A stretch of 22,861 bases of DNA from a virus. The position numbers and the translations under genes are program-made. The stretch lies in IMG/VR virus record IMGVR_UViG_3300025151_000326, positions 1 to 22,861 of that record; one strand, given 5' to 3'. The notes under the pieces were generated by a model. The model had not been told where the DNA came from. It saw nothing but the letters and a program-made list of their open reading frames with translations, and ran no database searches. This document shows, one piece after another, positions 8,209 to 19,046 of this stretch; within the stretch, counting starts at the first letter, position 1; each line of letters opens with the position of its first letter.

Positions 8209-8574
8209 ATGGCTATAGTATCTACAGCTAAATATTTTACAAATGCAAAAGACCTTTCAGCGACATCTGGTGGGGCAAGTGGTGATATAATATACACTTG
8301 TCCTGCTAATTTTATTTCTCTTATTAAATTTTTACACGTATCTAGTGGAGCAACTGCCACAAAGAAATACAGTCTTCAGTGGTACGAAGCCGCAACAACT
8401 ACCTATCATTTTATTATAGATGAACATAGTGTAGCAGGTAATGGCATTGAGGAAGTCATAGAGGGTGGCGCATATCTTGCATTAGCTGCAGGTGATAAAA
8501 TTGTAGGATTTGAAGAAAGTAGTTCAGACTTTCATGTAATAATTTCTGGCGAGGAACATTTCCAGCCTACATAA
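8209..8574 (+). CDS. Small beta-rich protein, possible virion component (121 aa)
   Basis: The ATG at 8209 is one base after the upstream stop (TAAC-ATG) with no clear ribosome binding site, suggesting translational coupling; the frame is open from 8188. The translation starts MAIVSTAKYFTNAKDLSATS and consists of Ser/Thr/Gly-rich beta strands (SLIKFLHVSSGATATKKYSL, LALAAGDKIVGFEESSSDFH). Such composition is typical of small phage structural or decoration proteins. No signal peptide. It is not specifically recognised and could alternatively work with the exported protein upstream. Confidence 0.65.
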   Translation: MAIVSTAKYFTNAKDLSATSGGASGDIIYTCPANFISLIKFLHVSSGATATKKYSLQWYEAATTTYHFIIDEHSVAGNGIEEVIEGGAYLALAAGDKIVGFEESSSDFHVIISGEEHFQPT

Positions 8575-8579
8575 CGGGG

Positions 8580-8608
8580 TTGCAATAATAGCAATTCTAT
8601 TGTATACT
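8580..8608 (+). promoter_or_regulatory. Sigma-70-type promoter ahead of DUF1127 gene
   Basis: TTGCAA (8580-8585) and TATACT (8603-8608) are 17 bases apart, matching host-type promoter spacing. The spacer holds the dyad AATAG-CAATT-CTATT, a possible operator. It lies in an 83-base gap in a region where genes otherwise touch. Confidence 0.6.
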
Positions 8609-8657
8609 AATTTATGTTATAACTATCTCCAGCACACAAATAAAAGGAGGTAGTGCA

Positions 8658-8801
8658 ATGTTTAAACGTATATACAACTTTATAAAAGACACAAACGAAA
8701 AGAGAGTGGCATACTGGCAATTACAGAATATGTCAGATAAAAATCTAAAAGATATGGGGATATCTCGTGGCGAAATCTACTCGAAAATCTACGGTGAATA
8801 A
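8658..8801 (+). CDS. DUF1127 (YjiS-like) small protein (47 aa)
   Basis: Starts MFKRIYNFIKDTNEKR with a perfect AAAGGAGG ribosome binding site. The second half, LQNMSDKNLKDMGISRGEIY, matches the DUF1127 signature L-x-x-L-S-D-x-x-L-x-D-I-G-I-S-R-x-x-I. DUF1127 proteins are short Arg-rich proteins abundant in alpha- and gammaproteobacteria; some have been linked to phosphate and carbon metabolism and to RNA turnover. The gene ends inside the next one (35-bp overlap). It is probably a host-derived gene that modulates host physiology on infection (inference). It is too short for many ORF callers and may be missed. Confidence 0.85.
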   Translation: MFKRIYNFIKDTNEKRVAYWQLQNMSDKNLKDMGISRGEIYSKIYGE

Positions 8802-8952
8802 GGCTGGTAATTATACCAAGCCAACTATGCGTAAAAATTTATTTAACCGCATTAAGGCAGGTAGTAAAGGTGGAGGGGCTGGTCAATGGTCGGCCCGTAA
8901 AGCCCAAATGCTTGCGAAACAGTATAAGGCTAAAGGTGGGGGCTATAGATAA
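8767..8952 (+). CDS. Conserved basic phage protein (61 aa), GTG start
   Basis: GTG at 8767 follows GGGG at about -9. The protein contains KAGNYTKPTMRKNLFNRIKA, then GSKGGGAGQWSARKAQMLAK and ends KAKGGGYR. From memory this K-P-T-x-R-x-x-L-F-x-x-I-K-A...G-Q-W-S-A-R-K-A-Q pattern is a conserved marine phage family of unknown role, often adjacent to the next gene. Basic charge suggests nucleic-acid binding. Overlaps both neighbours (35 bp and 1 bp). Confidence 0.8.
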   Translation: MAKSTRKSTVNKAGNYTKPTMRKNLFNRIKAGSKGGGAGQWSARKAQMLAKQYKAKGGGYR

Positions 8953-19018: not shown

Positions 19019-19046
19019 TTGACATATTAGTTATTTATGATATAAC
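19019..19046 (+). promoter_or_regulatory. Promoter candidate for capsid gene
   Basis: TTGACA (19019-19024) with TATAAC (19041-19046) at 16-base spacing; TATAAT at 19053-19058 is an alternative -10 but lacks a -35. It would drive the strongly needed capsid mRNA independently of upstream genes. Confidence 0.6.

Follow-up and report, generated by a model that had tools for sequence, protein, structure and literature searches.

A predicted Shine-Dalgarno-masking hairpin and a local promoter element ahead of the DUF1127 gene of HMO-2011-type marine podoviruses

Introduction

What might a DUF1127 gene of bacterial type do in a marine phage, and why is it preceded by a leader of its own inside an otherwise tightly packed gene module? 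This question is raised by a 22.9-kb stretch of viral DNA from IMG/VR (hereafter the window), in which the gene and all the leader features described below lie on the + strand. An earlier note on this DNA had read the locus as a moron-type gene with its own promoter, a dyad in the promoter spacer and a perfect ribosome binding site. HMO-2011-type phages, to which the window is assigned below, have been described as dominant ocean phages with a broad distribution (PMC9038755). The word "promoter" was not found in the literature on these phages that was searched as text, and a phage-borne DUF1127 gene is not treated in the titles and abstracts of the open-licence literature that mentions DUF1127 together with phages.

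The DUF1127 Gene and Its Protein

The ORF at 8658-8801 encodes a protein of 47 amino acids (MFKRIYNFIKDTNEKRVAYWQLQNMSDKNLKDMGISRGEIYSKIYGE) that matches the Pfam profile PF06568 with 27.5 bits (E 2.6e-6). The curated cut-off of the profile is 23.3 bits, and the identification as a DUF1127 gene made in the earlier note was borne out. It is the single DUF1127 match in the whole record, and the profile is also matched by all nine members of set A1. The average arginine content of DUF1127 proteins is given as 14% (PMC12501420), but this arginine-rich tendency is absent from the window protein, which contains 6.4% arginine compared with a median of 10.6% in phage DUF1127 proteins and 14.4% in bacterial DUF1127 domains. 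Arginine richness is a tendency of the family with no defining cut-off, and membership as judged by the profile stands. Given the low arginine content and a net charge of +3, arginine richness is in this case a weak argument for RNA binding.

Roles in both phosphate and RNA metabolism have been reported for DUF1127 proteins, including PhoR binding in Agrobacterium and E. coli and RNA binding by CcaF1 of Rhodobacter (PMC12501420), while RNA binding was not detected for YjiS of Salmonella (PMC11707872). We infer that the phage protein probably targets either RNA or a regulator of the host, of which sensor kinases such as PhoR would be one example; regulator binding in particular is a guess, possible but doubtful. 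A host-directed role is plausible, since a real bacterial-type DUF1127 gene is found in a phage together with local promoter elements.

Phage Lineage and Gene Order

The portal protein encoded in the window shares 84.6% identity with its counterpart in Roseobacter phage CRP-345, so that the window is, judging from this similarity, a fragment of an HMO-2011-type podovirus. The DUF1127 gene is carried by all 11 RCA-roseophage isolates of HMO-2011 type that were searched (CRP-1, -2, -3, -9, -13, -207, -212, -235, -345, -603, and -738), always ahead of the terminase genes and in the same gene order, while it is absent from the more distant HMO-2011 and pelagiphage HTVC033P. Three overlapping scans, in which IMG/VR loci are partly redundant, confirmed relatives encoded on at least 389, at least 491 and 194 viral stretches, respectively, and the leaders analyzed here were drawn from the best 80 of each scan.

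In the window, same-strand genes run from about 5.8 kb onward, and the DUF1127 gene opens a close-packed run toward the lysis, terminase, portal and capsid genes. A gap of 83 bp precedes it inside the tightly packed module, and to call it unlike its neighbours was therefore fair. The next gene (8767-8952), which matches phrog_17747 (function not assigned) with 124 bits over residues 2-61, overlaps it by 35 nt, and thus any promoters in the gap would also serve downstream genes. No terminator-like site was detected on the + strand between 5476 and 9738, and accordingly none between the end of the gene at 8801 and 9738. Taken together, gene content and order point to an established lineage gene that heads the late-module run, not to an inserted cassette. 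In a tree of about 50 columns a branch separates the phage copies from the bacterial ones. Its support is weak (32/93; 28% of bootstraps), and for this reason neither the host nor the donor of the gene can be named.

With respect to annotation, GenBank shows no gene at the DUF1127 ORF of CRP-13 (MW514247.1, 2501-2662; L004), and among the GenBank records examined the DUF1127 label is carried only by CRP-603 gp69 and Melnitz-3, the others being hypothetical. In GTDB, MAGs of Neomarinimicrobiota and Flavobacteriales appear to include HMO-2011-type phage contigs of 55-63 kb (L102-L105).

A Conserved Hairpin Over the Shine-Dalgarno Sequence

The perfect Shine-Dalgarno (SD) sequence claimed for the gene is present: AAAGGAGG lies at 8643-8650, 7 nt ahead of the ATG. 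What the first reading overlooked is that it forms part of one arm of a conserved hairpin and that a second -10 element is found at 8618-8623. In the predicted fold the 5' arm ACTATCTCC (8622-8630), an anti-Shine-Dalgarno sequence, pairs with the 3' arm GGAGGTAGT (8646-8654), so that the GGAGG of the SD is paired. The window hairpin folds at -11.5 kcal/mol with a z of -2.36, which is significant but modest. The same hairpin was predicted in all eight cultured relatives first folded, reaching -26.1 kcal/mol, while in a small number of leaders (CRP-2, CRP-603, L232 and their relatives) the structure is weaker or the shorter RNA considered below is predicted to bring little gain.

Comparison of the leaders argues that the hairpin is kept across these phages by compensatory change. 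In a MAFFT alignment of 29 leaders that was built without structure, 90.8% of the stem cells are paired, compared with 40-70% in slid control structures. Double changes were observed in six of the nine stem pairs, and doubly changed cells numbered 25 against 9.2 expected (0/500 shuffles). Among 144 distinct leaders there are 47 distinct arm pairs; loop length is variable, extra inner hairpins are present, and the start codon, rather than the SD, is covered by 5'-arm pairing in CRP-603 and in the CATGGTAT..ATACCATG leaders. When stems covering at least 4 nt of the SD were sought at SD-bearing ORFs, the DUF1127 start had the highest-scoring one of the 21 in the window and ranked first in five of six genomes tested, the sixth, CRP-13, being unscored as its SD, CGGAG, is outside the motif list. 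Searches of five genomes with a covariance model gave the leader as a single hit in each (next match E 0.14), and no Rfam match at E up to 1 was obtained in 8400-8850.

Promoter Elements in the Leader

Two promoter-like elements precede the gene. The upstream one, P1 (8580-8608), consists of TTGCAA (8580-8585), 17 nt and TATACT (8603-8608), as described in the earlier note. By consensus alone P1 is no better than chance, with 15 promoter-like sites found in 7 kb compared with 18.9 +/- 5.1 in shuffles. Its support comes instead from conservation, as 84 of 141 distinct related leaders contain a P1-type promoter, with a TTGCA(A/T)-type -35 and a -10, and 70 of these 84 have the 17-bp spacing. The conserved elements lie ahead of the following genes as well as of the DUF1127 gene. 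The spacer also holds the dyad (AATAG..CTATT), but inspection of relatives did not reveal it there, and it is probably a chance feature. Just upstream of P1 lies a conserved CATAACGGGG block (8570-8579; role not assigned), whose CATAACGGG string (CATAACGGG(G)) occurs once in the window; a CGG(G) element is found upstream in 130/141 distinct leaders. The P1 start is predicted at about 8615, and the resulting RNA would include the whole hairpin.

The proximal element, P2 (8615-8623), is an extended -10 (TG-T-TATAAC) with its hexamer at 8618-8623 and without a recognisable -35. Its hexamer (TATAAC, TATAAT or TAAAAC) is present in all 141 distinct leaders, and a TG occurs within 3 nt upstream of it in 122 of them. 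The P2 -10 is, on this comparison, the sole promoter element found in every leader and is better conserved than the P1 -10, from which it is mostly separated by 14-15 bp. It is only partly paired in the hairpin. In most leaders it runs straight into the 5' arm, while in CRP-235- and CRP-738-type leaders it sits within the hairpin loop, so that the local promoter would always escape the hairpin. The P2 start is predicted at about 8630, right at the end of the 5' arm. The hexamer is the poor TAAAAC in 27 of 144 distinct leaders, several of which also have a good TATAAC further upstream. RNA from that element would retain the hairpin, and in TAAAAC leaders a switch may be silent or work otherwise.

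Other features of the leaders and of the genome were also recorded. The ATG-NTA-TAA mini-ORF of many leaders was judged to arise incidentally from the TATGNTATAAC promoter motif. Just upstream of the P2 -10, CRP-3 (L003, 2412-2494) and CRP-212 (L006, 2421-2503) have a second inverted repeat, GCACCTA..TAGGTGC or CACCTAATTAGGTG, which is possibly an operator. Elsewhere in the window, a perfect TTGACA - 16 nt - TATAAC(TA) promoter (19019-19046) precedes the capsid gene, and with its counterparts ahead of the CRP-1, CRP-345, and CRP-13 coat genes it makes up a sigma70-type promoter set for these phages.

Predicted Effect of the Transcript Start on SD Accessibility

The energy needed to open the stretch from the SD to the AUG was computed for RNAs with different starts. 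It is at least 6 kcal/mol in 141/144 distinct phage leaders, and in 138/144 more than 3 kcal/mol is lost when the RNA starts at P2; one leader (L043) has a mis-assigned P2 in this analysis. For upstream starts the median is 10-12 kcal/mol, as opposed to 3.6 at the predicted P2 start, and the change is graded, from 10.0 at -12 through 6.5 at -4 to 3.6 at +0 relative to that start, a series in which a few -10 assignments fell on P1. In the window, the energy falls from 13.7 to 5.6 kcal/mol with the P2 start. As background, 207 other SD-bearing phage ORFs have a median of 4.6 kcal/mol and a 95th percentile of 9.7. The starts of 17 alphaproteobacterial DUF1127 genes are ordinary in this respect (median 5.4 kcal/mol). 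A chromosomal Rhodobacteraceae DUF1127 gene (L119) has a strong SD-sequestering leader hairpin with an opening energy of 17.8 kcal/mol, and the sole other exception among these 17 is L116 with 14.0 kcal/mol.

The gene, the hairpin and its covariation, and P2 and its position come from computation, whereas the activity of P2, its timing and a translational effect are inferred. We consider it probable, with considerable room for doubt, that the leader acts as a start-site-dependent translational switch for DUF1127. Upstream RNAs, whether by read-through from a late-module start or from P1, would include the arm at 8622-8630. In such long RNAs this arm would fold onto the SD arm at 8646-8654 and DUF1127 would be poorly translated, with the genes further down still readable. 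RNA started at P2 would lack the 5' arm and leave AAAGGAGG free for translation, so that DUF1127 production would depend entirely on P2 activity. The preservation of a cis-acting RNA through 47 arm sequences by compensatory change would imply strong selection against DUF1127 translation from the wrong transcripts, and making the protein at the wrong time probably carries a cost or does harm. A narrower proposal, that the P1 and P2 starts, 14-15 bp apart, form a tandem switch with opposite translational fates, is tentative and on balance unlikely. If it were true, a small shift in start site, under the influence of a phage factor or of the state of the host, would toggle DUF1127 while the downstream late genes stay on, and a tandem-promoter translational switch would be conserved across an abundant group of ocean phages.

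Alternative Explanations

It could also be that P1 is the real promoter and the hairpin is present on all functional transcripts, to be opened in trans by a host or phage RNA-binding protein, by feedback from the DUF1127 protein or by an sRNA. The frequency of P1-type promoters and the RNA binding of CcaF1 (PMC12501420) are in line with this, as are the leaders with a poor P2 hexamer, and it is mainly for these TAAAAC leaders that such an opener is possible. However, arm and loop sequences vary freely and offer little fixed sequence to a recogniser, RNA binding was not detected for YjiS (PMC11707872), and the P2 -10 is both universal in the leaders and only partly paired. Moreover, in CRP-235-type leaders the stretch from the upstream gene to the 5' arm holds no recognised promoter. 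We regard a trans-acting opener as unlikely, though it merits serious consideration.

A hairpin that sequesters the SD is the usual design of an RNA thermometer, in which heat would melt the stem and DUF1127 would be made. The phage arms are often perfectly paired, however, and opening requires 18.5 kcal/mol at 20 C and 14.1 at 37 C in the window, with a median of 15.3 kcal/mol over all leaders at 20 C. Such a stem is far too stable to melt at the temperatures of the sea, and we give a thermometer hardly any credence. If the inverted repeat were instead a DNA operator overlapping the promoter, its coverage of the P2 -10 and start in most leaders would be explained and the overlap with the SD would be incidental. 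Yet a DNA-binding protein would conserve sequence and spacing, whereas the arms change together, loops differ in length and may hold inner hairpins, and the 3' arm always follows the translation start region, which makes an operator highly improbable. The moron reading of the earlier note, taken here to mean a recently inserted host gene with its own promoter and independent expression that alters host metabolism, agrees with a bacterial-type protein, a local promoter and a slightly lower G+C content (32.6% compared with 37-39% in the neighbours). It did not survive the comparison with relatives, since the gene is fixed in presence and order in the 11 isolates, lacks a terminator behind it and overlaps its successor, and its phage copies group together, albeit weakly. 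We therefore consider a moron cassette very improbable. The start-site switch is the reading that we prefer. Cultured CRP phages allow a direct test both of what DUF1127 does in phages and of their timing programme.

Comparison with Known Systems

The window protein belongs to the same Pfam family as the Agrobacterium SDPs, CcaF1 and YjiS and is of similar length, but unlike them it is arginine-poor (6.4% against the family average of 14%; PMC12501420). Control of a DUF1127 gene through its mRNA leader has a parallel in duf1127-1 of Sinorhizobium meliloti, which is subject to uORF-dependent transcription attenuation (PMC12218461). Attenuation in that case operates via a translated uORF, while the phage leader is predicted to mask the SD directly by a hairpin. 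Among other phages, the DUF1127 genes of Lentibacter phage ICBM1 and Methylophilales phage Melnitz abut or overlap the preceding gene, and no comparable leader was seen by eye before either.

The closest likeness is to the hairpin-regulated late genes of T4 (I-TevI, segB, soc, and e) and to mobE of Aeh1, in which a stable hairpin sequesters the SD on upstream transcripts, as was computed here. In T4 I-TevI, upstream transcripts fold over the ribosome binding site, while those of the local late promoter lack the sequence needed for the hairpin, and sequestration of the ribosome binding site is also listed for soc and e (PMC2988022). Similarly, the predicted local -10 of the phage leaders is placed so that its RNAs would lose the 5' arm, a position that fits in 138/144 leaders. 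However, the late promoters of the T4 genes are read by the phage sigma factor gp55, whereas P2 is a sigma70-like extended -10 of the TATAAC type also found before the capsid gene. The leaders described here further differ in serving a small DUF1127 regulator gene in marine podoviruses, in often having a second start 14-15 bp upstream that would keep the hairpin, and in including versions that mask the start codon; a sequence relation to T4 is not claimed. By analogy, the phage DUF1127 leader may work like those of the T4 genes without being one of them.
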